NCBI GenBank assembly: GCA_031256615.1 | Contig: JAIRQG010000095.1 | Location: 1-20,889 of the forward strand | Direction of reading: 5' to 3' | Length of the DNA stretch: 20,889 nt | DNA from: Candidatus Methanoplasma sp. | GTDB taxonomy: Archaea > Thermoplasmatota > Thermoplasmata > Methanomassiliicoccales > Methanomethylophilaceae | Shown here: positions 1,364-18,407 of the stretch, piece after piece | Layout: the number at the start of each line of letters is the position of its first letter | Position numbering within the stretch: the stretch's first letter is position 1 | Notes under the pieces: model-generated | The model's input: only the letters and a program-made list of their open reading frames with translations | The model's database searches: none | Told to the model about the DNA's origin: nothing | Position numbers and translations under genes: made by a program

Positions 1364-2977
1364 TTAAATTTTTATTTCCAGTGTTTTGATCTGCAACACT
1401 TTCTTGGGGCATATCATTTCGCAGCGCTTGCATGCGGTCCCCATGCATCTTTCCGAATTGATGGTGATCACGGCTTCATTGACCTGTATCGCCGACTCCG
1501 GACATTCCTTAACGCACTTTCCGCATGAAATGCACCCCTCTACTGCTCCGGTGAGTTCGACACCCGCATTTGTCAGGATGGATACTTTCTTTCCTCTAAG
1601 CTCCGGAAGGTCGGTAGCAGACTTGCGCTCCGAACGGGATTTGACAGGCTCGATAGGTACATGCTTAAGCCCGTACACATCCATCATATCGTTGTACGCA
1701 GACAGAGGCATCCCATATGACCACAATGAGATCTCAACGGAATAGATGTCCTTGAACTCTTTCGATGAGGCGAACATACAGTGTTGGGCTCTCAGCTGCT
1801 TAGTCATCTCTCTGAGATCCTCCATCGTTCTTTCGCCTGTGATCATCCTCCTCGCAAGCATTATTGAAGTGTTCCCGTATTGTATCATCTCGGTGGCACC
1901 GGGCGTCACAAGGCCGATCCTCTGTGCTTTCTTTGCGTCCACATAGAGCCCAGATGCACCTGACATATACGCAGAGGTAACATCATCGACCCAGATGCCG
2001 GCTTCTATCATGAGCGTGAGATATCCCGCGCGTATGGCGCCTATGGCCTTGCCTGCTTCATCGACGTCCTTTGAATCAATGCATATGTTGTTCTGCAGAT
2101 GCAGAGATCCGTCCGGCGTGTTAACGGTTGACCCGGAAACAAGTCCGGAATCATAACCGCACGCAATCGCCGCAACAACTCCGGTACCTGTTATGCCGAC
2201 TGCTTTTCCGTGCATCTCTCCCTCTGAAATAATGCTGCCGGTGACCGGGTCTATTGTATCTCCCTCTCTTGGCAGGAGAGCATCATCAAGAACGTAACAT
2301 GTCCATCCTTTCTCTCTTATCTCGATATTCGAGATCGCTCCGGGCGCGGCCAGCATCCCTTCCTTTATCTGTTGGCCCTCCAATGCCGGTCCGGCTGCAG
2401 CAGAGCCGGTGTATATGTTTCCCTTATGGAGGAGCGCCATCTCGGCGTTGGTGCCGTAATCAATGACAATCCTTGTCCCCTCTTTCTCAAGTACTCCGGT
2501 CTCTGTCAGCATTGCCATTGCATCTGCACCGATCTCGTGCGTCACTGCCGGAGGTATCATGACGTCTGCATCGATATCCGTTATCCCAAGATCTGATGCC
2601 TTGACAATAGCGCCGTTTCTGTCGGGCGAGACGATTCCCAATCTTTTTATCATGGACTTTCCCGCGTATGCGAGATCCCTGATCTCAATGTTCTGAAATA
2701 TCGATAACTGGAAAGGATTTCCGCATACAGCGATTATCACGACTTTTGAAAGGTCTATTTCCAAAAGTTTAAAGAGATTGTTGATCGCCCTTATCATAAG
2801 GCCGGTCGCTACATCCTGGCCGGAATCTATAGCGAAGTTCACATGATCTATCACATTCATCCCCGGAATGGGGTGGCGGGATGTCATGGCTGTGGATACA
2901 GTCTCTCTCGTATCGAGATCGATAGCCTGGCATCTTAATCCGCTTGTACCAATATCTAAAGCTATTCTGTACTTCAT
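1364..2977 (-). CDS. ramA: Methylamine corrinoid protein reductive activase RamA
   Basis: RamA uses ATP and low-potential electrons to reduce the inactive Co(II) cofactor of methylamine corrinoid proteins to Co(I). The chosen start (MKYRIALDIGTSGLRCQAID) gives 537 aa, close to Methanosarcina RamA, and opens directly with the actin-like ATPase phosphate loop DIGTSG; an in-frame ATG 14 codons upstream (3019) has less support. The middle holds the DUF4445-type activase domain. The C-terminus (about residues 482-525) carries two ferredoxin-like [4Fe-4S] motifs, CISCGKCVKECP and CMGTACKRCEMICP; the second has the wider first spacing common in RamA. It lies 92 bases downstream of mtmB on the same strand and is probably co-transcribed with it. 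It ends in TAA. Confidence 0.93.
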   Translation of the reverse strand: MKYRIALDIGTSGLRCQAIDLDTRETVSTAMTSRHPIPGMNVIDHVNFAIDSGQDVATGLMIRAINNLFKLLEIDLSKVVIIAVCGNPFQLSIFQNIEIRDLAYAGKSMIKRLGIVSPDRNGAIVKASDLGITDIDADVMIPPAVTHEIGADAMAMLTETGVLEKEGTRIVIDYGTNAEMALLHKGNIYTGSAAAGPALEGQQIKEGMLAAPGAISNIEIREKGWTCYVLDDALLPREGDTIDPVTGSIISEGEMHGKAVGITGTGVVAAIACGYDSGLVSGSTVNTPDGSLHLQNNICIDSKDVDEAGKAIGAIRAGYLTLMIEAGIWVDDVTSAYMSGASGLYVDAKKAQRIGLVTPGATEMIQYGNTSIMLARRMITGERTMEDLREMTKQLRAQHCMFASSKEFKDIYSVEISLWSYGMPLSAYNDMMDVYGLKHVPIEPVKSRSERKSATDLPELRGKKVSILTNAGVELTGAVEGCISCGKCVKECPESAIQVNEAVITINSERCMGTACKRCEMICPKKVLQIKTLEIKI

Positions 2978-3069
2978 TGTATCGTTCCTGACCTGCCCGA
3001 TATGCTTACATAGGCCCATTAGCGTGTTAAAATGTTTTGGTAAAAGGTTTACCTAAAGGTACGAAGGCC

Positions 3070-4452
3070 TCAATATTTTATATCGAGGCCCAGCTCGCTT
3101 AACAAATGTATGCTGTTCTCATATACGCCAAGGTATTCTTCGGACGGTGTTATTGTCTTCAGGTCAAAACAATCTTGGAAACGTTTGCTCTTCGGCGGGT
3201 GATGGAATTCAGACTCGTAGCTTCTGATAAGACGGTCAAGAAGCACATTGACATCCGATACTTTCATGCCTGCGGTGGCTATTGCTGCTTCTCCCATTAT
3301 CCTTGCTTCCAAAGGCGTTGTTTTGTCTCTTGCAACGCCCTTTGACGCTGCTGATCCAGATATCAATTCTCTTCCCGATGCGGTATCCGCGATCGCCTGC
3401 GCCGCAGTCTCGAGAAGACACATTTCCGTACACGGCCCTGCCAAAGGATAGTATTGGTTGGAAAGGAGCAGGTCTGTGTTAATATCCAGCGCCGCTCCCA
3501 CGTGTGACGAGATCTGAAGGGTCTCTCTTGCGGTGGTTATCCCCCATCTTATGTGGATGGGACCGTCAAGATGTATGTGCGATCCGAACATGACGAACGA
3601 TGCAAGCGTAGTTGCGACGTCGCATATCGCGGTTTCCTCGACACCTCCGGAATATCCTCCGAATATCGGCATCTGCTCCATCATGATGGTGTCGCCGTTC
3701 ACAGCCCAACCCGCAAGCATGTTCAACCCGGTCATGTCTATTTTCATCTCATTGAGCTGAGAACATTCGTGCATATCCGTCTTTTCAAGACCGGATTGCA
3801 AGCTTGAGGCCAGACGGCCTGCTGCGGAGAGCGGGGTTTCAGGACCCTATATCGCCATTCCCGGGCGCTCTGCCCTGGCCATGCCTTCTTTCACTGCCCT
3901 TATCTCTGCCAGCGTTGCCTTGATCTCCCAAGGTGTGTTAGCGATCGGTGCATGACCGTCAACCGTCGACATAACACCGCTTACCAGCGTGTCGACGGTC
4001 GCTTCCTGAGCATACCCCTGCATCATTATCACGAAGACATCTTCGGACACTGGGGCGCCAGTCGGTCCTCCTTGGACTATCGGTTTTGCGGAGCTGTTTC
4101 CGCGGCGTCTATCGCATATTACCTCATCTTTGCCATGTCCCAGTCTCAGCCTTTTAGGTGCTTTTTTTATGCCTTCGAAGATCTCAGATTCGGTCACGTA
4201 CATGACCCTGCCGAGGTCCGGGTTAAAGACTCCCGTCTCGACAAGCATGTCCACACCTGCCTGGAAAAGTCTGTTTGTTACATCTTTATCCTCTGGAATG
4301 ATGCTGTTTCCGAATTCTAATTTATATTTGTTTTTGATTTTTGTGGCGTTGTTTGGCACTGTAACGTAATCCCACGTATCCTCTCGCACCTTCTTACCGC
4401 TTACAAACCTGTCATGTGCATCGAATATAGACAAAGACCTGGATGCTACCAT
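3070..4452 (-). CDS. mtmB: Monomethylamine methyltransferase MtmB, with in-frame amber (pyrrolysine) codon 202
   Basis: MtmB transfers the methyl group of monomethylamine to the Co(I) of its corrinoid protein MtmC, the first step of methanogenesis from this substrate. Two open stretches in the same frame (201 and 257 codons) are joined by one TAG at 3847-3849. The flanks, ERPGMAI before and GPET after, match the pyrrolysine site of Methanosarcina MtmB, where Pyl is residue 202; here it is also codon 202. The total of 460 residues with Pyl fits the family (about 458). The stop is TGA. The ATG at 4452 has GTGAT three bases upstream. A small hairpin (AGGCC/GGCCT, loop GTCT) starts about 26 bases after the TAG. 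ramA follows; mtmC is not adjacent. Standard gene finders will split this gene in two. Confidence 0.96.
3847..3849 (-). other. In-frame TAG of mtmB, read as pyrrolysine (codon 202)
   Basis: This is the single amber codon inside mtmB. Both sides are conserved MtmB sequence in one frame, and the same window encodes tRNA-Pyl, PylS and the Pyl biosynthesis enzymes. The position is identical to that in characterised MtmB proteins. Confidence 0.96.
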
Positions 4453-4701: not shown

Positions 4702-5085
4702 TCAGCGCAATTCGCATTTAGAGATACCTCCCGGGGCGGGCTCTCTGAAACAGACCGGTACCTGGTGGCAAAGTTCCTTTGCTCTGTAGACCTCTGCGTC
4801 CGGAAATGTCCTAGTTATGAGGTCTGATTCAGCTGTGTCGAAGTCTGCATACAGAATAATATGATTCTTCTTACCAGGTACTGTCTCAGATCGGATCTTT
4901 TCCAACAAATTGTTCTTTTCTTTAACGTAGATGACGTTTGCTGAATCATCTTCGGCTATTCTGTCAGCTAAAATATCCAGAAGCGGTTCTGGACCCATTC
5001 TGCGTTCTCCCCTGAGTATTCCCGCGTCGGGGTTAGAAAGGAATGAATCGATCCGATCGATCATCGGATGTTGGTATTGCTGCAT
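4702..5085 (-). CDS. Small protein of unknown function
   Basis: Not recognised. The start MQQYQHPMIDRIDSF gives 127 aa; a longer version from an ATG at 5148 exists but adds a hydrophobic stretch of poor coding character. The TATA-like TTTTAATATC (minus strand, around 5110-5120) sits about 30 bases before the ATG at 5085, which would make a leaderless message. The protein is soluble and rather acidic, and shows strand/helix alternation (VIYVKEKNN, HIILYADFD) that could form a small alpha/beta fold. It has three cysteines, two of them near the C-terminus (CHQVPVC). It stands between mtmB and the pyl cluster but is on its own transcript with its own terminator. Its end codon is TGA. A link to methylamine or Pyl metabolism is only positional. 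Confidence 0.6.
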   Translation of the reverse strand: MQQYQHPMIDRIDSFLSNPDAGILRGERRMGPEPLLDILADRIAEDDSANVIYVKEKNNLLEKIRSETVPGKKNHIILYADFDTAESDLITRTFPDAEVYRAKELCHQVPVCFREPAPGGISKCELR

Positions 5086-5370
5086 ATCGCAGAAGAAATA
5101 GACCCCAGAAGATATTAAAATATGGATTCGATGCAGCTGCTGTAACATGAGATATTACCTCAATATCTGTTAATTTAATCTTGATCGGTCATGGGCGGGG
5201 GCTTTACTGGCAATCTTTCCTGTTATCGGAAAAGGATCGGTGCGGAGACGCTTCTCCGCAGCAGGCAAGATGTCAGGTCTGCACTGCCTATGAAACAACT
5301 AAGAAATGCGGCAAGATTTTGGATAATATTAAATACTAGTACCGATAAAATTTATTTATTGATAGATGTG
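5086..5370. other. Intergenic stretch without a convincing gene
   Basis: This stretch holds the upstream region of the small minus-strand gene and a GC-richer island (about 5190-5290) in AT-rich surroundings. A 74-codon frame from 5191 reads through it but has no family resemblance and no ribosome site, so it is not called. The island contains the perfect hairpin listed separately. Confidence 0.5.
5241..5260. other. Perfect 8-bp hairpin in intergenic DNA
   Basis: TGCGGAGA and TCTCCGCA flank a 4-base loop (CGCT). No T-run follows on the plus strand, so it is not an obvious terminator. It may be part of a small structured RNA or a protein-binding palindrome. Confidence 0.5.
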
Positions 5371-5609: not shown

Positions 5610-5643
5610 GAACTGCCATCCCGTGGTACATCAATGATGGAAC

Positions 5644-5713
5644 GGGGGACGGTCTGGGACCAGTAGGCCTCTAAAGCTCAACTAGCGGGGTTCGATCCCC
5701 CGGTCTCTCGCCA
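5644..5713 (+). tRNA. pylT: tRNA-Pyl (anticodon CUA), with encoded CCA
   Basis: This is the amber-decoding tRNA charged by PylS. Reading in order: acceptor GGGGGAC / GTCTCTC with two G-U pairs; no base between acceptor and D stem; D stem GGTC/GACC closed by a loop of only three bases (TGG); anticodon loop CTCTAAA with CTA; a three-base variable loop (TAG); T stem CGGGG/CCCCG with loop TTCGATC; discriminator G and CCA. The anticodon stem is interrupted (GT-A-GGC against GCT-CA-AC). The closest tRNA I recall is that of Methanomethylophilus alvus, which shares the acceptor and T arms, the missing connector and a broken anticodon stem, but has a 4-base D loop. Total length is 70 with CCA. pylS follows within 30 bases. 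Confidence 0.95.
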
Positions 5714-5723
5714 TGATAATGCT

Positions 5724-5732
5724 GGTGGTGAT
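5724..5732 (+). promoter_or_regulatory. Shine-Dalgarno-like site of pylS
   Basis: GGTGGTGAT matches the archaeal GGAGGTGAT complement of the 16S tail with one mismatch. It is 11 bases after the tRNA CCA. The next ATG is at 5740, but that ATG is followed at once by TAG and is not in the pylS frame. The in-frame AUC at 5736 lies three bases beyond the site. Confidence 0.6.
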
Positions 5733-5735
5733 GAC

Positions 5736-6560
5736 ATCAATGTAGATTTCACTGACGCGCAAGTCCAAAAACTAAGAGAGTTCGGAGATGATCCGAGAGA
5801 CACGTCCACTTTTGATAGTGTTGAAGAAAGAGAAAAGGCGTTTTCAAAACTCCTGTCAGATCTGATATCTCTGAATGAAAGATCGATAAAGGAGATGGTC
5901 AAAACTCCATCAAGACATCAGCTGGCACAGCTGGAGGCAGATATCTCAAAAGCACTGATATCAAAAGGCTTCATCGAAGTAAAGACGCCGGCGATCATCT
6001 CAGCGGCATCTCTTGAAAAAATGACGATCACCCCGGAGCATCCACTTTATAAACAGGTGTTTTTCATTGACAGCAAAAGATGCCTGCGCCCGATGCTTGC
6101 ACCGAACCTGTATTACGTGATGAGAAAACTAAGGGATCACACCGATGGTCCGGTAAGGATATTCGAGATCGGTTCGTGTTTCAGGAAAGAGTCGCACAGC
6201 GGCACGCATCTTGAGGAGTTCACCATGCTTAATCTGGTCGAGATGGGACCGGATAAGGATGCTACGGAAGCATTGAAGGAATACATCGGCGATGTGATGG
6301 GCGTCGCGGGGCTGGATTATACATTGTCGAGAGAAGAGTCTGATGTGTATAAGGAAACTCTCGATGTGATGATAGGCGACACGGAAGTGTCATCCGGGGC
6401 GGTCGGCCCGCATATACTGGATCCGGCTCATGACGTTCACGAGCCGTGGTCGGGAGTCGGGTTCGGGCTTGAAAGGCTTCTCATGCTGATGAACAGTAAA
6501 AGCAGCGTTAAAAAGACGGGAAGAAGCCTCAGCTACCTCAACGGTGCAAAGATAAACTGA
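5736..6560 (+). CDS. pylS: Pyrrolysyl-tRNA synthetase (single-domain, PylSn-less type), start codon anomalous
   Basis: PylS attaches pyrrolysine to tRNA-Pyl. The catalytic class II core is complete and the pocket residues known from M. alvus PylS are present: Tyr and Met in NLYYVM, Asn and Val in LNLVEMG, Trp in HEPWSGVGFG; it ends SYLNGAKIN. There is no N-terminal PylSn domain, as in the Methanomethylophilus group. The first ATG in frame (5895) would give only 221 aa and remove a conserved stretch: the frame upstream reads VDFTDAQVQKLREFG, which aligns with VKYTDAQIQRLREYG of M. alvus. No ATG, GTG or TTG occurs in that frame back to the tRNA. Taking AUC 5736 as residue 1 gives 274 aa and numbers the pocket Tyr and Met 126 and 129, as in M. 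alvus. A one-base sequence error or a frameshift near 5740 is the main alternative. It ends in TGA overlapping pylB. Confidence 0.9.
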   Translation: MNVDFTDAQVQKLREFGDDPRDTSTFDSVEEREKAFSKLLSDLISLNERSIKEMVKTPSRHQLAQLEADISKALISKGFIEVKTPAIISAASLEKMTITPEHPLYKQVFFIDSKRCLRPMLAPNLYYVMRKLRDHTDGPVRIFEIGSCFRKESHSGTHLEEFTMLNLVEMGPDKDATEALKEYIGDVMGVAGLDYTLSREESDVYKETLDVMIGDTEVSSGAVGPHILDPAHDVHEPWSGVGFGLERLLMLMNSKSSVKKTGRSLSYLNGAKIN

Positions 6561-7624
6561 TGGTGAAAACATTGAGCATCGTTGAAATAATAGAGAAATC
6601 GGGGAGAAACGAAAAGATCACCAGAGATGAGGTCGTGGAACTCCTGTCGATAAAAAAGAAAGAGGATATCTCTGAGCTGTTCGCAGCGGCAAGTTCCATT
6701 AGGGACAAGATGTTTGGAAAGAAGGTCTTCATCTACGGATTCGTTTATTTCTCCACACACTGCAGGAACAACTGCGCGTTCTGTTTTTACAGAAGGACCA
6801 ACCGCCCGCCGCGTTACAGAAAGACGGAAGACGAGGTGCTGGTGTTATCGCACAGCCTCAAAGACGCTGGAATAAATCTGGTGGACCTCACAATGGGAGA
6901 GGACCCGGTCATGTGCGCTGATGACTACAGCGAATTCCTGAACATCGTGAGAAGGGTGAGGGACGAGGTCAACATCTCGATAATGGCATCGCCGGGAGCG
7001 GTTCCGGAAGGCTCTTTCGAAAAGTTCAGGGACGCAGGAACGGATTGGTTCGCATGTTACCAAGAAACCTATAACAGAGAATTGTTCTCAAAACTCAGAT
7101 TGGAACAGGATTTCGATAACAGGCTGAATCAAAAGATATGGGCAAAGAAAGCGGGAATGCTCAGCGAGGACGGCATCATGGTCGGTCTCGGAGAAACATT
7201 CGAAGACAGGGCGGATTCCATTCTTAAAATGGGCTCCCTGGGATGCGAGCAGATACGCGCAATGACATTCGTTCCTCAGAAAGGAACGCCGATGGAGAAT
7301 GTGAAACCCACAGAACCCATAGATGAACTGATATCGATAGCGGTGATGCGTGTCCTGTTCCCGGACAGACTTATACCTGCGTCTCTCGACGTGGAAGGGA
7401 TAGCGGGGCTGAAGAGCAGACTGGACGCCGGCGCCAATGTCATAACATCCATCGTCCCTCCGCATGAGGACCTGGCAGGGGTCGCCCAGCACGAGCTGGA
7501 CATCAACAACGGCCGCAGATCGGTCGAGCATGTCATGCATATGCTGGATGAAATGGGGAAGAAGGCCGCTACCTGTACGGAATATGAAAGTTTTTTGAAA
7601 AAATTAAAAGCAAACAACAAGTGA
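6560..7624 (+). CDS. pylB: Methylornithine synthase PylB (radical SAM)
   Basis: PylB rearranges L-lysine to (3R)-3-methyl-D-ornithine, the first step of pyrrolysine synthesis. Of 354 aa; the radical SAM cluster motif is CRNNCAFC (Cys68, 72, 75, CX3CX2C) followed by FYRRTN, typical of the PylB/BioB/HydE-like group. Further family blocks are DLTMGEDP, MASPGAVP, CYQETYNRELF and the C-terminal substrate region SLDVEGIAGLKSRLDAGANV, which reads as in characterised PylB. Its ATG shares one base with the pylS stop (TGATG), so translation is probably coupled. pylC follows four bases after the TGA. Confidence 0.95.
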   Translation: MVKTLSIVEIIEKSGRNEKITRDEVVELLSIKKKEDISELFAAASSIRDKMFGKKVFIYGFVYFSTHCRNNCAFCFYRRTNRPPRYRKTEDEVLVLSHSLKDAGINLVDLTMGEDPVMCADDYSEFLNIVRRVRDEVNISIMASPGAVPEGSFEKFRDAGTDWFACYQETYNRELFSKLRLEQDFDNRLNQKIWAKKAGMLSEDGIMVGLGETFEDRADSILKMGSLGCEQIRAMTFVPQKGTPMENVKPTEPIDELISIAVMRVLFPDRLIPASLDVEGIAGLKSRLDAGANVITSIVPPHEDLAGVAQHELDINNGRRSVEHVMHMLDEMGKKAATCTEYESFLKKLKANNK

Positions 7625-7628
7625 TCAG

Positions 7629-8789
7629 ATGAAAATAGGAATCGTGGGGGGAGCCCTTCAGGGAATGGAAGCAGTCTTTTTATCAAAGAAAGCGGGATTT
7701 GAGACCTTGGTCATAGACAGGAAGGGAACGGCCCCCGCTCTGTCCCTGTCCGACACGCATGTGGTACTGGATGTCACAAAGGATAAGGAAAAAGCGAAAT
7801 CCATTTTGTACGACTGCGATGCGGTGGTCCCGGCATGCGAGGAGATAGACGCCCTAAAAGCGCTTGACGAGATAATGGAACATTCGGAGATACCGTTCCT
7901 TTTCGATATCGAGGCATATACGATATCGTCATCAAAAGAACGGTCCAATGAGATAATGGCGGAGGTCGGAGTTCCGCTGCCGAGGCCATGGCCGGAATGC
8001 GGTTTTCCCGCGATAGTAAAGCCGTCGTCTCAGAGCGGCAGCATAGGCGTGTCCGCCGTCAACAACAGAAAAGAAATGGATGCGGCGCTGAACACGGTCA
8101 AAGAACTGGGAGACATCCCGATAATACAGGAGTTCGTCTCTGGCAAGAGCGTATCGATCGAGGTTATCGGAAGAGGGGATTCGGCAAGGTCCTTCGTGAC
8201 GACCGAAGTGGTCCTCGATTCCAACTACGATTGCAAGATGGTGCTTTGCGAGCCCGGCATCCTGCCGAAAGAGGACGACGACCTCTTTGCCGATATAGGC
8301 AAAAGGACCGCAGAAGCGATAGGCCTCAACGCGCTTATGGACGTGGAAGCGATCTACACCAAGAACGGCCTCAGGGTTCTGGAGATCGACGCGCGCATCC
8401 CGAGTCAGACCCCCGCTGCGGTATTGGCCGCCACGGACATCAACATACTGGAGGAGCTTGTGTTCTCAGCAATGGGAAAAAGCACCGGCAGGAAGAACAG
8501 GAACGAATGTTCTGCGTATGAGCATTACACAATAGAATGCGGCAGCCTGATCACATGCGGCGAAAAAGCTTTCGGGAAGGTGTCTGAGCCTAGATTCGAG
8601 AGCAGGTTCTTCGGAGCGGATGATGCGATAACCGATTATGCCCCCGGAAAGGACACATGGAGAGCAACCGTGATCACCCGCGGGAAGGACCCGGCCGAGG
8701 TATTGAGGAAAAGAAAGATGTTCATAAGCAGCGTAATGAAAGAGTGCGATCTGGAAGAGTATATCGACAGGTCCCCGAGGATGGTATAA
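7629..8789 (+). CDS. pylC: (2R)-3-methylornithine:lysine ligase PylC (ATP-grasp)
   Basis: PylC joins 3-methylornithine to the epsilon-amino group of a second lysine using ATP. The 386-aa protein opens with the pre-ATP-grasp fold (MKIGIVGGALQGMEAVFL). The ATP-grasp lysine block KPSSQSGSIGV lies at about residues 131-141 and the metal/substrate block LEIDARIPSQTPAAV in the second half. The length is slightly above Methanosarcina PylC (about 363). GTGAT directly before the ATG can act as ribosome site and overlaps the pylB stop region. The stop TAA shares one base with the pylD ATG. Confidence 0.95.
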   Translation: MKIGIVGGALQGMEAVFLSKKAGFETLVIDRKGTAPALSLSDTHVVLDVTKDKEKAKSILYDCDAVVPACEEIDALKALDEIMEHSEIPFLFDIEAYTISSSKERSNEIMAEVGVPLPRPWPECGFPAIVKPSSQSGSIGVSAVNNRKEMDAALNTVKELGDIPIIQEFVSGKSVSIEVIGRGDSARSFVTTEVVLDSNYDCKMVLCEPGILPKEDDDLFADIGKRTAEAIGLNALMDVEAIYTKNGLRVLEIDARIPSQTPAAVLAATDINILEELVFSAMGKSTGRKNRNECSAYEHYTIECGSLITCGEKAFGKVSEPRFESRFFGADDAITDYAPGKDTWRATVITRGKDPAEVLRKRKMFISSVMKECDLEEYIDRSPRMV

Positions 8790-9607
8790 TGACAAGACTC
8801 ACCGATGACATGGTAAAGGGCATAATCGACTCGCTGGACGGCACGAACGATATGCTGATCACATCGACCGGCATGGACACTTTGGAATTGGCGTGCGAAG
8901 CGATAGGCCTAACTCCCGAAATGTTGGACCTTGAGAACATAAAGGTCGGCGTGGTGCCCATCACATCCGGCAAAGGGATCATCAAGAAGTTCTCGGAATC
9001 GGTCGCGGAGATAGCGCGGAAGCTGGGAATGGAGGCATTCGTCACCGAAAATGCAGATGTGACCGGGATTGCCGAAGCCCTTTCCGCCGAGGCCGAGATA
9101 ATATTCATGGCCGATGACATCAAATTCATCGCACTGAACACAACGAACGGAAAATTCTCCCACAATTCGTTCTCCACCGCTGCCGGTTACGTAACTGCGC
9201 TCAAAGGGGCTGCGGGAGGGCTTGCCGGAAAAGAAGTACTGATCTTAGGCGCAGGGAGAGTGGGGAGCATCGCCGCCGAAATGATGGCAGGGATGGGTTC
9301 GTACGTCACCGTATATGATATCGATGCGGAAAAGATGAAACGGCTCTCAGACAGCACCGGCGTGAAGATGACCGCGGACATCAACGGCGCGCTGTCCTCG
9401 CACGATTTTATTCTCAACGCATCGCCTGGAGCTATCGACGGAAGATATCTGAAAGAAGGAGCGATCGTCTCGTCGCCGGGGATACCTTTCGCCTTTGACG
9501 AGCTGGGGATGAAAAAGGCCAAAATGATAATACATGACCCGCTGGACATCGGAGCGGCGGTAATGGCGGTAGAGGCGGCATCGTTCTCCAGGCTCAAAAA
9601 GCCGTGA
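8789..9607 (+). CDS. pylD: Pyrrolysine synthase PylD (dehydrogenase)
   Basis: PylD oxidises L-lysine-N6-3R-methyl-D-ornithine with NAD+ and lets it cyclise to pyrrolysine. The start MTRLTDDMVKGI overlaps the pylC TAA by one base; the frame stays open 44 codons further upstream, but that part lies inside pylC and is not used. The 272-aa product has an N-terminal helical part, then a Rossmann fold with ILGAGRVGS (GAGRVG at about 154-159), an acidic dinucleotide-binding end (VYDID) and the family block ILNASPGAID. Methanosarcina PylD is about 259 aa. It is the last gene of the pyl cluster and ends in TGA. Confidence 0.95.
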   Translation: MTRLTDDMVKGIIDSLDGTNDMLITSTGMDTLELACEAIGLTPEMLDLENIKVGVVPITSGKGIIKKFSESVAEIARKLGMEAFVTENADVTGIAEALSAEAEIIFMADDIKFIALNTTNGKFSHNSFSTAAGYVTALKGAAGGLAGKEVLILGAGRVGSIAAEMMAGMGSYVTVYDIDAEKMKRLSDSTGVKMTADINGALSSHDFILNASPGAIDGRYLKEGAIVSSPGIPFAFDELGMKKAKMIIHDPLDIGAAVMAVEAASFSRLKKP

Positions 9608-14044: not shown

Positions 14045-14063
14045 GGCGGTCTTACCTTTTTTT
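14032..14063. terminator. Bidirectional terminator between the MMPL gene and the thi operon
   Basis: ACCGCC (14032-14037) and GGCGGT (14045-14050) form a stem spanning the MMPL stop codon. T-rich sequence (CTTACCTTTTTTT) follows on the plus strand, and TTTTGTTGTTTTTTT follows on the minus strand just after the last thi gene. Confidence 0.75.
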
Positions 14064-14654
14064 GATCCTCTTCCTCAACTCATCCATTGTTGTGTGAGGG
14101 TCTGTGGACCGCATCAAAAGGTTTCTCACACAGATCCCTTTGCATCCCGCGTCGATGACCATGCCGACATTGCCTGTGTCGATCCCGCCGATGGCGAAGA
14201 CCGGTATGCGGACGGAACCGCAGACCTCTTTCAATTCGTTTATTCCCTTTCCTATGGCATCCGGTTTGCATGTGGTCTCAAAGACATTGCCGTATATCAG
14301 ATGGGTCGCGCCGTTCTTTTCCGCTTCCATGGACTCATACTTGGAATGTACGGAGACCCAGACCTCTTCAAAATTGTTCAGTTTGCCTACGTTGGCGATA
14401 AATGGATCGAACGGCAGCTGTACGCGTCCGTTGTTGATGGAAGCAGCTACATTTAGGAATGAGTTGACACAGAACTTAACGTTATGATAATCGCATATCC
14501 GCTGACATTCAACAGCAAGATATCTGTAGCCTGCCTCTGAAAGGTCTTTCTCCCGGAGTATGATCATGTCGGGAGATGCTGTTGCTATCGCCTCGATCTG
14601 ATCTAAGAAGTCCCTCAGAGCACTGATCCTCCTGTCCGTTACTGCGATTATCAT
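14052..14654 (-). CDS. ThiE/TenI-like protein (thiamin phosphate synthase paralogue)
   Basis: Last gene of the thi operon, 200 aa, a TIM barrel of the ThiE/TenI family. It keeps IILREKDL near the start and FAIGGIDTGN with GICVRNLLM near the end (phosphate-binding loops). It differs from the true ThiE of this operon at catalytic positions: the Asn-Asp pair is NSF here, the GVHLGQ-D block is VQLPFD, and the pyrophosphate loop is VFETTCKP instead of IFHTSTKH. That points to a TenI-like role, such as thiazole aromatisation, or a divergent synthase. Its ATG overlaps the thiH stop (ATGA). Stop TAA. Family sure, exact reaction unsure. Confidence 0.82.
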   Translation of the reverse strand: MIIAVTDRRISALRDFLDQIEAIATASPDMIILREKDLSEAGYRYLAVECQRICDYHNVKFCVNSFLNVAASINNGRVQLPFDPFIANVGKLNNFEEVWVSVHSKYESMEAEKNGATHLIYGNVFETTCKPDAIGKGINELKEVCGSVRIPVFAIGGIDTGNVGMVIDAGCKGICVRNLLMRSTDPHTTMDELRKRIKKR

Positions 14655-15802
14655 ACTCTCACATAGTCATTGAATACCGGCTGTAAGCCTCTTTTGGTCA
14701 GAACGCGTCTTATCTCATCCACGCTTCTCGGATCAGAGATGTCAAACTGCTCATCGCCCTTTTTTTCCTCCGCATGTCCGCCCACTCCTACCGATACTCC
14801 GGCGGATATCTTTGTGGCGCTCAGCCCGACGATATTGTCTCTGAAATCGGGGCTCTCTCTGGAAGATATGGTCTGTCCGGCGAAAGGCATGAAGATGCGG
14901 TACGCAAGCGCCACCTGCAGAAGATCTCTCTCAGATATTATCTCAGCGGAATATTTTCCTTTGCTGAAAGGCCTCAGCCTCGGCAGGGAGAAGGAGATCT
15001 CCGCGTGCGGGTATTTTCTCTGCAGAAGATATGCGTGGGTCCCGCATGCCAAGGCATCTTTTCGGAAATCTCCCAGTCCGAGCAGAGCGCCGAAGGCAAC
15101 GCCCCTCATCCCTCCCATCAGTGCCCTTTCCTGTGAATTGAACCTGTATGAGAATATCTTCTTCGGGCCGAATGGATGGATCCTTTCATACTTCGACGGG
15201 TCGTATGTTTCCTGAAAGACCGTGACATAATCGGCGCCGCAGTCGCGAAGGCGGCTGTATTCTTGGACATTCAAAGGGTAGATCTCAAGCCCGATGTTCC
15301 TGAAGTACTTCGCTGCCGTCCTAACGCAGCCGCTGATGAAATCCAAATCAGACTTCTCCCTGGATTCCCCTGTCAGGATAAGGACCTCGGCAAGGCCGGA
15401 TCTTGATATTATCGACATCTCTCTGTCAATATCCTCCTGAGAGAGTTTTGCCCGGCGGATATCGTTGTCCGCATTGAAACCGCAGTACAGGCAGCCGTTA
15501 TCGCAATAGTTCGATGCGTACAGAGGAGTGAATATGCTGATAGAGTTGCCAAAATACCTTTGAGTCTCTTCTCTGGCCCTTTGTGCCATTTCCTCAAGGA
15601 AGCTGCCCGCAGCAGGCGAGAGAAGAGAGGCAAAACCTTCTATGCCGAGGCGGCTCTCGCCGAGTGCGTTCTAAACATCTGTCTCCGTGAACGAAATAGG
15701 ATCAAGCTCGGAGACCTTTGACAGAGTGTTCTTCATGATGTTGGACTTTATCGGTTCCATATGTTCGAAGTAGTCGCCGGCATCCGTGAATTCTCTGGTC
15801 AT
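14651..15802 (-). CDS. thiH: 2-iminoacetate synthase ThiH (radical SAM), with in-frame amber codon 44
   Basis: ThiH cleaves tyrosine to dehydroglycine (2-iminoacetate) and p-cresol, feeding the thiazole ring made by ThiG. Read from the ATG at 15802, which overlaps the thiG TGA as ATGA, the frame gives 43 codons ([20 protein letters not shown] onward), a TAG at 15671-15673, then 339 codons to TGA. Without the TAG the first usable ATG (15589) would drop 71 residues. The segment around the [21 protein letters not shown] then [20 protein letters not shown], aligns with the conserved ThiH N-terminus (E. coli ADVERALNAS then MMALLSPAASGYLEQLAQRA), the amber replacing the polar residue after DV. The radical SAM motif is CDNGCLYC (Cys100, 104, 107). 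Other family blocks are [32 protein letters not shown] and [11 protein letters not shown]. The full length of 383 residues fits the family. Pyrrolysine at residue 44 is inferred. Confidence 0.9.
15671..15673 (-). other. In-frame TAG in thiH, probable pyrrolysine codon 44
   Basis: The frame is conserved on both sides and there is no shift. Eight bases after the TAG the message can fold a small hairpin, CGGC-GAGA-GCCG (plus positions 15651-15662), with a GNRA-type loop. The site is in the helical N-terminal region before the radical SAM barrel, where homologues have Glu, Arg or similar. Confidence 0.8.
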
Positions 15803-16575: not shown

Positions 16576-17214
16576 TCACATATCTCCCTTGATAATTAAT
16601 GAAATTACGGCATTTGCCATGTGTCCTGCGCAAATGTTCACTCTCGGCGACATAAGACCTCCTTTGGCATCCTCCAGGTCAATACCGTCACCGCATATGT
16701 AAAGGTCAGCGAATAACCTTTCTGTTCTTATTTCGTTGGACCTTCCGAATCCCGCCATTCCGGAACCGGACACGACCTTGATCCCGGGGCATTTTTCAAG
16801 AAGAGCATTGATAAGCATTGCCTTCTCAGAGGGAACATCAAAGGCTTCGCAGACGATATCGCATTTTCCGAAGATGTTCGGGATGTTGGATGGTTCCAGC
16901 TTCATATTGTGCTTTTCAATAGTAAGATACGGGTTGATCTTCTTAAGCAGCTCCTCGGCGGCATCGACCTTCGGTCTTCCGATCTGATCGAGATAGTAAT
17001 TCTGTCTGTTTATGTTGGTGATATCAACTATGTCAAAATCGGCAACTGTCAGATAGGACACTCCTGCTCTGACAAGCATTGCAGCGATGTTCGATCCGAG
17101 GCCACCTAGGCCTGCGATGCCTATCTTTGCTTTTTTTATTTTATTATGAATTTCGGGGCCGTGTCTTGCACAAAGAGTATGGTCCAACTCGTCCATGCTT
17201 GGAAACGACATCAT
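16576..17214 (-). CDS. thiF: ThiS adenylyltransferase ThiF (short, clostridial type)
   Basis: ThiF adenylates the C-terminal glycine of ThiS so that sulfur can be added. The 212-aa E1-like protein has the nucleotide loop GIAGLGGLGSNIA (about 32-44), the acidic ATP-binding part VADFDIVDITNINRQ with Arg70 and Gln71, and GRPKVDAA with Lys82. It is shorter than E. coli ThiF and shows no paired CXXC zinc site, as in the 'family 2' ThiF of Clostridia. Its ATG overlaps the thiS TGA (ATGA). Stop TGA. Confidence 0.93.
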   Translation of the reverse strand: MMSFPSMDELDHTLCARHGPEIHNKIKKAKIGIAGLGGLGSNIAAMLVRAGVSYLTVADFDIVDITNINRQNYYLDQIGRPKVDAAEELLKKINPYLTIEKHNMKLEPSNIPNIFGKCDIVCEAFDVPSEKAMLINALLEKCPGIKVVSGSGMAGFGRSNEIRTERLFADLYICGDGIDLEDAKGGLMSPRVNICAGHMANAVISLIIKGDM

Positions 17215-17405
17215 CCACCACCAACAAACCCGACTATTTCAACGGAGTCGTCCTCTTTTAGAAGTGTGCAGGCGTACTCCGACCTCGGAATGATCTTTCC
17301 GTTCAGTTCAACTGCCACCCGGTCCTGTCTGCGGCCGGTGTTAAGGATCAGATCCTCCACTGTCATCGGCGGAATCAGTTCCAGATGCTTACCGTTGACT
17401 TTCAT
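17211..17405 (-). CDS. thiS: Sulfur carrier protein ThiS
   Basis: A ubiquitin-like carrier of 64 aa that brings sulfur to ThiG as a C-terminal thiocarboxylate. It begins MKVNGKHLELIPPMTVEDLI, has the central VAVELNGKIIPRSEY strand that is characteristic of ThiS, and ends EIVGFVGGG with the needed Gly-Gly. It lies directly upstream of and overlaps thiF, its activating enzyme. Confidence 0.95.
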   Translation of the reverse strand: MKVNGKHLELIPPMTVEDLILNTGRRQDRVAVELNGKIIPRSEYACTLLKEDDSVEIVGFVGGG

Positions 17406-17424: not shown

Positions 17425-18054
17425 TCAGATATTTGGTCTTACTTTCAGTATCATATCTCTAAGTTCATGAGCAGCTGACGGGATATCTTTCTGCGACACA
17501 ACGGCGGAGACCACTGCCACGCCGTCCGCACCGGCTCTGATAACGTCTTGTATATTCCCTCTGTTGATCCCGCCGATCGCCATCACAGGTATGTCAACAG
17601 CCGTTTTGACCGTGAAAACGGCGTCGAGACCCATGCCGTTGCGCGCATCGTGTTTGGTGGAGGTATGAAATATCGAACCCACACTGACATAATCTGCTCC
17701 TTCCGATTCCGCTTTTCTTGCCTCTTCCGGGCTGTGTACTGACATTCCTATCAGTTTGTCGTCTCCGAGCAGTTCTCTGGCATCTTTTATCGGTATATCA
17801 GACTGACCGAGGTGCACGCCGTCCGCATCTGACAATATTGCAATATCCACTCTGTCGTTCACAATGAAGAACTTTGCATATTTTTCCGAGATGGTCTTGA
17901 TCTTTCTGGCTTGCTCAAGCACCTCTTTTCCGTCAGACCCTTTCATTCTCAGCTGAACGATGTCGGCGCCGCCGGAATAAGCAAGCCTGGCGACCTCGGA
18001 CTCAGACAGACCGTTCGACAAGGCACGGTCTGTTATCACGCAGAGTTCGAACAT
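17425..18054 (-). CDS. thiE: Thiamin phosphate synthase ThiE
   Basis: ThiE couples the thiazole phosphate with the pyrimidine pyrophosphate to give thiamin phosphate. The start MFELCVITDRALS gives 209 aa; a TTG five codons upstream (18069) is a less likely alternative. All catalytic blocks are present: QLRMKG, FIVNDRVDIA, GVHLGQSDIP, GSIFHTSTKH, VMAIGGI and a C-terminal GVAVVSAVV phosphate loop. It is the first gene of the thi operon, 19 bases before thiS. I see no TPP riboswitch motif upstream on the minus strand (18055-18150). Confidence 0.94.
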   Translation of the reverse strand: MFELCVITDRALSNGLSESEVARLAYSGGADIVQLRMKGSDGKEVLEQARKIKTISEKYAKFFIVNDRVDIAILSDADGVHLGQSDIPIKDARELLGDDKLIGMSVHSPEEARKAESEGADYVSVGSIFHTSTKHDARNGMGLDAVFTVKTAVDIPVMAIGGINRGNIQDVIRAGADGVAVVSAVVSQKDIPSAAHELRDMILKVRPNI

Positions 18055-18145
18055 ACTGCTTAATCGCAAACAGACCTATTAATGCTATCCGAAGGCCAAT
18101 GAAACAATGGTCGGTAGGAATGACAAAAATATTCAGGTCAACTCA

Positions 18146-18289
18146 GGTATCCAAAATGCAAGAAATTTCACATTTCAGATACCTAAAATGCAAGAAATTT
18201 CACATTTTGGATATCTCAAATGCAAGAAATTTCACATTTCAGATACCTAAAATGCAAGAAATTTCACATTTTGGATATCTCAAATGCAA
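18146..18289. repeat. 32-bp tandem repeat array built of nested palindromes (about 4.4 copies)
   Basis: The block ATGCAAGAAATTTCACATTT recurs at 18156, 18188, 18220 and 18252, exactly 32 bases apart, with a broken fifth copy at 18284. The 12-base linkers alternate between CAGATACCTAAA and TGGATATCTCAA, giving a 64-bp higher order. Each unit is a dyad: GAAATTTC in the centre, AAATG/CATTT around it, and GGTATC/GATACC or GATATC outside. A 65-codon frame runs through but 32 is not a multiple of three, so the array is not coding. It lies between thrS and thiE, about 75-100 bases upstream of the thi operon start. Confidence 0.9.
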
Positions 18290-18407
18290 TAGATGAAAAA
18301 TATGGATATCTTTTCAAAGGCCATAGTGGCTGTAAACCCCAAAAACCATAATTGCAATTGAGAAAACACCTGCAAGAGAAATGATTGAAATGGTTTGAAA
18401 GACCCGA
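18290..18407. other. AT-rich gap between thrS end and the repeat array
   Basis: No gene is seen. It contains the 3' flank of thrS, with T-rich stretches on the minus strand (for example TTTTTGGGGTTT near 18340) that may end the thrS transcript. Confidence 0.4.

Follow-up and report, generated by a model that had tools for sequence, protein, structure and literature searches.

An archaeal code in which all TAG codons are read as pyrrolysine (Pyl) has reportedly been described by Kivenson and colleagues (Science, 2025), who are said to have documented, with proteomics, a purely sense use of TAG in Methanomethylophilus alvus and Methanococcoides burtonii. For the Methanomassiliicoccales, the report on Candidatus M. 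alvus gives 16 Pyl candidates that are not methyltransferases and 1.6% TAG stops, and proposes that a mutation to an amber codon within a gene is stable under constitutive suppression (Borrel et al. 2014, PMC4153887). The available parts of the reports on ISO4-H5 and ISO4-G1 give 46 amber-containing genes (PMC5011839) and 25 Pyl proteins, 9 of them methyltransferases (PMC4824259), respectively. An earlier note on the DNA analyzed here treated Pyl outside methylamine metabolism as remarkable, the known Pyl proteins being mostly methylamine methyltransferases; with candidates from these three reports in print since 2014-2016, this was overstated, and for this order the contrast fails. For ThiH itself, the structural account of the Thermosinus carboxydivorans enzyme (TcThiH) assigns residues 1-71 to a compact alpha-domain and residues 71-356 to the radical SAM barrel (PMC9046217).

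The window, by which we mean the whole stretch of 20,889 nucleotides that was analyzed, comes from an uncultured methanogen and carries a cluster of thiamin genes in which the thiH frame contains a TAG codon. The relevant features are as follows.

14651..15802, minus strand: thiH (2-iminoacetate synthase), 383 codons if TAG is translated
15671..15673, minus strand: in-frame TAG, codon 44, predicted pyrrolysine
15674..15802, minus strand: thiH codons 1-43, N-terminal part of the alpha-domain, the same as database protein P0124 (43 aa)
14651..15589, minus strand: 312-aa ORF from codon 72, radical SAM barrel without the alpha-domain, the same as database protein P0012
15799..16572, minus strand: thiG (PF05690, 323.9 bits), overlapping the thiH start (ATGA)
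14052..14654, minus strand: thiE/tenI-like gene (PF02581, 118 bits), overlapping the thiH stop (ATGA)
16576..17214, minus strand: thiF (ThiS adenylyltransferase; PRK08644, 272.1 bits, cut-off 159)
17211..17405, minus strand: thiS (PF02597, 50.4 bits)
17425..18069, minus strand: thiE (TIGR00693, 205.3 bits, cut-off 145.1)

The minus-strand frame from 15802 to 14651 starts at the ATGA overlap with thiG, contains exactly one TAG (15673-15671), is open if TAG is sense and stops at TGA; the first ATG, GTG or TTG downstream of the TAG is the ATG of codon 72 (ORF 15589-14651). The earlier note had described this same amber-interrupted frame, with 43 codons ahead of the TAG and a gene otherwise intact, and both descriptions hold. 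Its identification of the protein is borne out by the TIGR02351 (ThiH) model, which scores 483.1 bits against a curated cut-off of 380, while the product falls under the cut-offs of other models (HydG 193 versus 312, PylB 65 versus 348). Homology extends across the TAG, as had also been claimed: the TIGR02351 match covers residues 11-380 and the column is filled in 29 of the 29 relatives read at this codon. The gene therefore has what marks a Pyl protein, an in-frame TAG with homology on either side. Residues C100, C104 and C107, which we take to be the CxxxCxxC radical SAM motif, are invariant in a 24-row alignment. By these similarities the window protein is ThiH (2-iminoacetate synthase), with a predicted tyrosine lyase activity.

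The same window encodes the complete Pyl machinery, in agreement with the earlier note, together with a methyltransferase gene, mtmB, that carries the same codon. PylS, PylB, PylC and PylD all score above curated cut-offs and pylT was recognized by sequence only.

5644..5713, plus strand: pylT, tRNA(Pyl) with anticodon CTA, CCA included, read by eye
5736..6560, plus strand: pylS, start taken as ATC 5736-5738 (TIGR02367, 287.1 bits, cut-off 178.15, run on 5634-6560)
6560..7624, plus strand: pylB (TIGR03910, 453.1 bits, cut-off 348.2)
7629..8789, plus strand: pylC (TIGR03909, 335.5 bits, cut-off 248.3)
8789..9607, plus strand: pylD, ATG 8789 taken as start (TIGR03911, 202.2 bits, cut-off 150.05, run on 8795-9607)
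3070..4452, minus strand: mtmB, in-frame TAG at codon 202 (PF05369, 738.2 bits)

A sequence nearly identical to pylT precedes pylS in relatives and its acceptor stem pairs; its folding energy is no better than that of shuffles, and neither ARAGORN nor Rfam called it. MtmB is a classic Pyl protein and serves as an internal positive control. Within mtmB, Rfam places PYLIS_1 at 3849-3750 below threshold (26.2 bits versus a gathering score of 70). Two other genes lie near mtmB. The adjoining gene at 1364-3019 (minus strand) encodes a protein with RACo domains and 4Fe-4S clusters, presumably a RamA-like corrinoid-activation protein, and an apparent extra TAG in it was discarded as lying upstream of the table-11 start. 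Upstream of mtmB, a 148-aa ORF at 4702-5148 (minus strand) matched nothing in Pfam or NCBIfam at the thresholds applied.

The start of pylS is unusual. Among 13 genus loci examined, the pylT end and the N-terminal motif of PylS were both found in 11, and in 10 of these the in-frame codons ahead of the motif, up to 14 in number, include no ATG, GTG or TTG; the exception, L182, has an ATG. In all 11 (window 5724-5738, plus strand; L175-L183, L185 and L187 among those named) pylT is followed by GGTGGTGAT-NNN-ATC with an invariant ATC, the first element being exact in eight loci and differing at one or two positions in three. It is a Shine-Dalgarno-like stretch at a fitting distance from the ATC. 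An in-frame TAA just upstream of the ATC excludes an ordinary start in L181, and the corresponding Ile of the window aligns with the first Met of PylRS chain 6JP2, which we take to be the native Met1 of M. alvus PylRS behind a short tag. It is thus likely from these alignments that pylS starts at AUC. In another frame, the leader at 5713-5745 (plus strand) reads ATG ATA ATG CTG GTG GTG ATG ACA TCA ATG TAG, a putative short upstream ORF that ends in an amber codon across the pylS start; its ATG TAG is kept in several relatives, L183 not being one of them, and this leader might sense charged tRNA(Pyl).

We examined how TAG is used in the source assembly, which comprises 1.18 Mb in 151 contigs, is 81% complete and is presumably a MAG. 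Genes were called by codon usage in the window and 60 other stretches (61 stretches, 470 kb, 40% of the assembly). By the standard code the stops of 401 complete genes are TGA in 304, TAA in 96 and TAG in one, and this sole TAG end is mtmB at its Pyl codon. Over the first 304 kb of the assembly, 16% of the stop trinucleotides are TAG, so about 65 TAG ends per 400 would be expected by composition. As a terminator, TAG is essentially absent from the 470 kb sample, as in a Pyl code, with the proviso that rare TAG stops could be missed because the caller omits genes shorter than 60 aa or with a low coding score. When TAG was treated as sense in the sampled stretches, only mtmB and thiH were found to carry an internal TAG flanked on either side by clear coding sequence; in L115 and L122 the TAG lies 4 and 7 codons away from a start that was guessed, and these two were rejected as upstream-start artefacts. 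A separate scan for stops flanked by coding sequence without a nearby start did not detect thiH itself, and a SepSecS search of the source assembly found none. In 400 kb of a genome of the same genus (G048), 6 of 289 genes end in TAG, and at least one of these (L167) continues in a coding frame. Internal TAGs with flanking coding sequence were seen there at L167 4065-4847, L167 4852-5658 and L172 2-1960; the L172 stretch has 11 in-frame TAGs and may be a mobile or decayed gene.

The TAG of thiH is thus most likely read as pyrrolysine in the source cell. PylB, PylC and PylD would make Pyl, PylS would charge tRNA(Pyl) with it, and this tRNA would decode codon 44, giving a full-length ThiH of 383 residues. 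The lineage would be one in which TAG is hardly, if ever, a stop and thiH a working gene whose Pyl is tolerated, and thiazole synthesis would be contingent on Pyl supply. Taken as a whole, we hold this reading to be very probable. The sequences themselves show an intact gene under constraint, a full set of Pyl genes and, in the sample, no TAG stop besides the mtmB codon; from these we infer the insertion of Pyl at codon 44, its efficiency and the dependence of thiazole synthesis on it.

Residue 44 falls in a helix (40-48) of the N-terminal alpha-domain, where the alignment sets it against Arg at chain position 39 of TcThiH. Among 117 full-length relatives (the 120 matches listed minus the short P0012 and P0017 and the chimeric P0014) the residue is R in 54, K in 19, L in 17, E in 9, M in 5, V in 5, S in 3, I in 2 and N, A or T in one each, and the column ranks 33rd of 383 in entropy. 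In the 29 relatives where the codon itself was read, the residue is R in 14, E in 5, K and L in 3 each, and S, V, M and F in one each. A helix position at which Pyl is tolerated, as proposed in the earlier note, is therefore supported, and a residue this variable makes a conserved function of Pyl at 44 very unlikely; its side chain is probably exposed, to judge from the variability. The nearest full-length relative among the matches listed, P0004 (87% identity), has K44 and is sister to the source ThiH plus P0017 with support of 98/98. The Lys codon at 44 in L005, L012 and L013 is AAG, one base off TAG. The TAG would most simply have taken over from a Lys/Arg-type codon, and Pyl at this variable helix position would have no catalytic role.

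Alternatively, the true codon might be a sense codon such as AAG, CAG or GAG, and the TAG a minor variant or a mistake of consensus or assembly. The assembly is fragmented and incomplete, and the codon is an exception among relatives: ThiH is present at E 1e-20 in 65 of 102 family genomes including the source, the match covers codon 44 in 62 of the other 64, and none of these 62 has an in-frame stop. An order-wide search at E 1e-40 found ThiH in 65 of 147 genomes, none beyond the set of the family, so that no other family or order genome with a listed match has such a stop. As a control for error we aligned G048 proteins to the first 304 kb of the source assembly, where 58 of 303 had a best match of at least 50% identity (17,166 aligned residues). 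Only two in-frame stops were found in these homologs, the TAG of thiH and a TAA two residues from an alignment end, and the thiH TAG is thus more than would be expected by chance. Further evidence against an error comes from P0017, which is 98% identical to the source ThiH (5 differences in 312 residues, among the 120 matches listed) and whose longest contig is 60,556 bases. It begins at Met72, exactly like the short call of the source gene (P0012), while P0004 to P0011, each of 383 aa, begin at Met1. This start makes it likely that codons 1-71 of the P0017 gene contain a stop as well, for which the same TAG is the simplest candidate. A search for its 43-aa stub returned one protein, identical to that of the window, in a cluster of 2 members. 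The question of whether relatives share the TAG, raised in the earlier note, thus has a divided answer: the codon is sense in 29 of 29 relatives read, and the TAG is probably shared by one sequence 98% identical. We regard an error as improbable.

A fresh pseudogene, in which ribosomes would halt at the TAG and thiamin or thiazole would be imported, is less probable still. The stop does lie within the frame, and no thiH match was found at E 1e-20 in 37 of 102 family genomes, many of them incomplete. When private changes were counted against the sister P0004 with five outgroups in turn, core residues 72-383 gave source-to-P0004 ratios of 13:7, 18:4, 18:5, 15:8 and 10:12, an excess in the source lineage with four of the five outgroups and not with the fifth; in residues 1-71 the ratios were 9:9, 9:5, 6:8, 3:10 and 2:9, without a consistent excess. 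However, ThiH violates none of 150 near-invariant columns (those with 97% uniformity or more across the other 117 sequences), where all rows have a median of 1 and a maximum of 6 violations, and it bears no second lesion. Pairwise dN/dS of thiH against four relatives is 0.06-0.10, with dS near saturation, and that of the relatives' own six pairs is 0.04-0.11. The thiS, thiF, thiG, thiE and thiC genes are all intact, and a TAG stop here would be unique among the 401 genes.

Equally improbable, in our view, is that the TAG terminates a 43-aa stub while an internal start at codon 72 yields a second product, a 312-aa radical SAM core lacking the alpha-domain. ATG72 coincides with the limit between alpha-domain and barrel described for TcThiH, and the public protein set contains both pieces (P0124 and P0012). 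The boundary Met is, however, invariant as an ordinary internal residue in the 24-row alignment, no other sampled gene uses a TAG stop, and codons 45-71, reachable solely by read-through and otherwise untranslated, retain FASLLSPAA. These codons are no more diverged than those of relatives: against G039 there are 9 amino-acid-changing and 11 silent-only codons, and 10 and 10 between G039 and G048.

That a different suppressor tRNA or a near-cognate tRNA inserts another amino acid is the least probable alternative. In its favor, Pyl at 44 is a prediction and the tRNA scan covered 40% of the assembly; against it, a complete pyl set stands beside an mtmB with the same codon and no canonical tRNA with a CTA anticodon was among the 8 found by ARAGORN in 60 stretches.

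The earlier note also pointed to a GNRA hairpin after the TAG. The letters CGGC-GAGA-GCCG are indeed present eight bases after it, and their role as a signal is not supported. From the TAG onwards, a segment of 100 nt shows no more stable folding than shuffled sequences (z 0.10), the minimum-energy fold of this segment lacks the stem, and the hairpin occurs in none of 14 relatives tested, all without the TAG. Perfect 4-bp GNRA stems begin within 20 nt of 333 of 78,233 codons (0.43%), and stems with any tetraloop near 7,294 (9.3%); the match is uncommon, yet it was picked after the fact. Rfam has no match at thiH at E 0.1, and a PYLIS-type insertion element at thiH was rejected on these grounds.

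We found a single thiH in the source assembly, the second match being pylB, and no Thi4 above cut-off; since this assembly is in 151 pieces and 81% complete, it may lack a further thiH or a Thi4 that the genome has. With a single copy, thiazole synthesis would depend on Pyl supply, and this 81%-complete assembly suggests that it needs Pyl in the source organism. The radical SAM enzymes PylB and ThiH are themselves related, with 25% identity over residues 57-249, which makes a loop possible in which PylB is now required for making ThiH. A stronger claim, that TAG has wholly ceased to be a stop, that Pyl is essential for full-length ThiH and thiazole, and that the pyl genes are essential without methylamines, we consider evenly balanced between true and false. 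Two members of the thiE/tenI family lie in the cluster (14052-14654 and 17425-18069, minus strand); the product of the former reaches the cut-off of none of the 12 NCBIfam models listed and may resemble the thiazole tautomerase TenI. Behind thiE, an ORF at 18099-18296 (plus strand) repeats HFRYLKCKKFHI-like units and is probably a short repeat array; on the opposite strand Rfam gives a sub-threshold match to MIR2863, a miRNA, at 18162-18265 (28.5 bits, gathering score 94).

The candidate Pyl proteins thereby gain an enzyme of cofactor synthesis. It is a clean case, as its amber codon occupies a Lys/Arg-type site and TAG stops are almost absent from the genome. Standard gene calling splits such proteins, here into 43 and 312 aa, so that they can be overlooked or shortened in metabolic reconstructions. 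Should thiamin synthesis really require Pyl, the organism would need its pyl genes even in the absence of methylamines, which offers a test of how code expansions become irreversible.

Compared with known systems, this gene resembles the candidates published for Methanomassiliicoccales, as far as the available parts of those reports go, in having TAG in ordinary genes (MtxX, Cas1 and DGGGP synthase; adenylate kinase, Cas3 and others), few TAG stops and homologs without the TAG in other members. By the standard code, one of 401 genes in the source sample ends in TAG (mtmB), against 1.6% reported for Candidatus M. alvus. The Candidatus M. alvus table is without ThiH (PMC4153887), and the available parts of the ISO4-H5 and ISO4-G1 reports do not mention it; their 46 and 25 genes are not all named, so ThiH may figure in these sets (PMC5011839, PMC4824259). 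Among the literature matches listed, judged on titles and abstract openings, we found no report of a Pyl-containing ThiH. The source is a different organism from those of the Pyl code attributed to Kivenson and colleagues in 2025 and is known here from sequence; their lists of predicted Pyl proteins may include ThiH. TcThiH (7PD1/7PD2, PMC9046217) has the same fold and family as the source ThiH, with Arg where the source gene has TAG. Since Pyl candidates other than methyltransferases were already published for the order, ThiH is a further case and not a new class: a Pyl ThiH is a new example of what was already predicted for related archaea.
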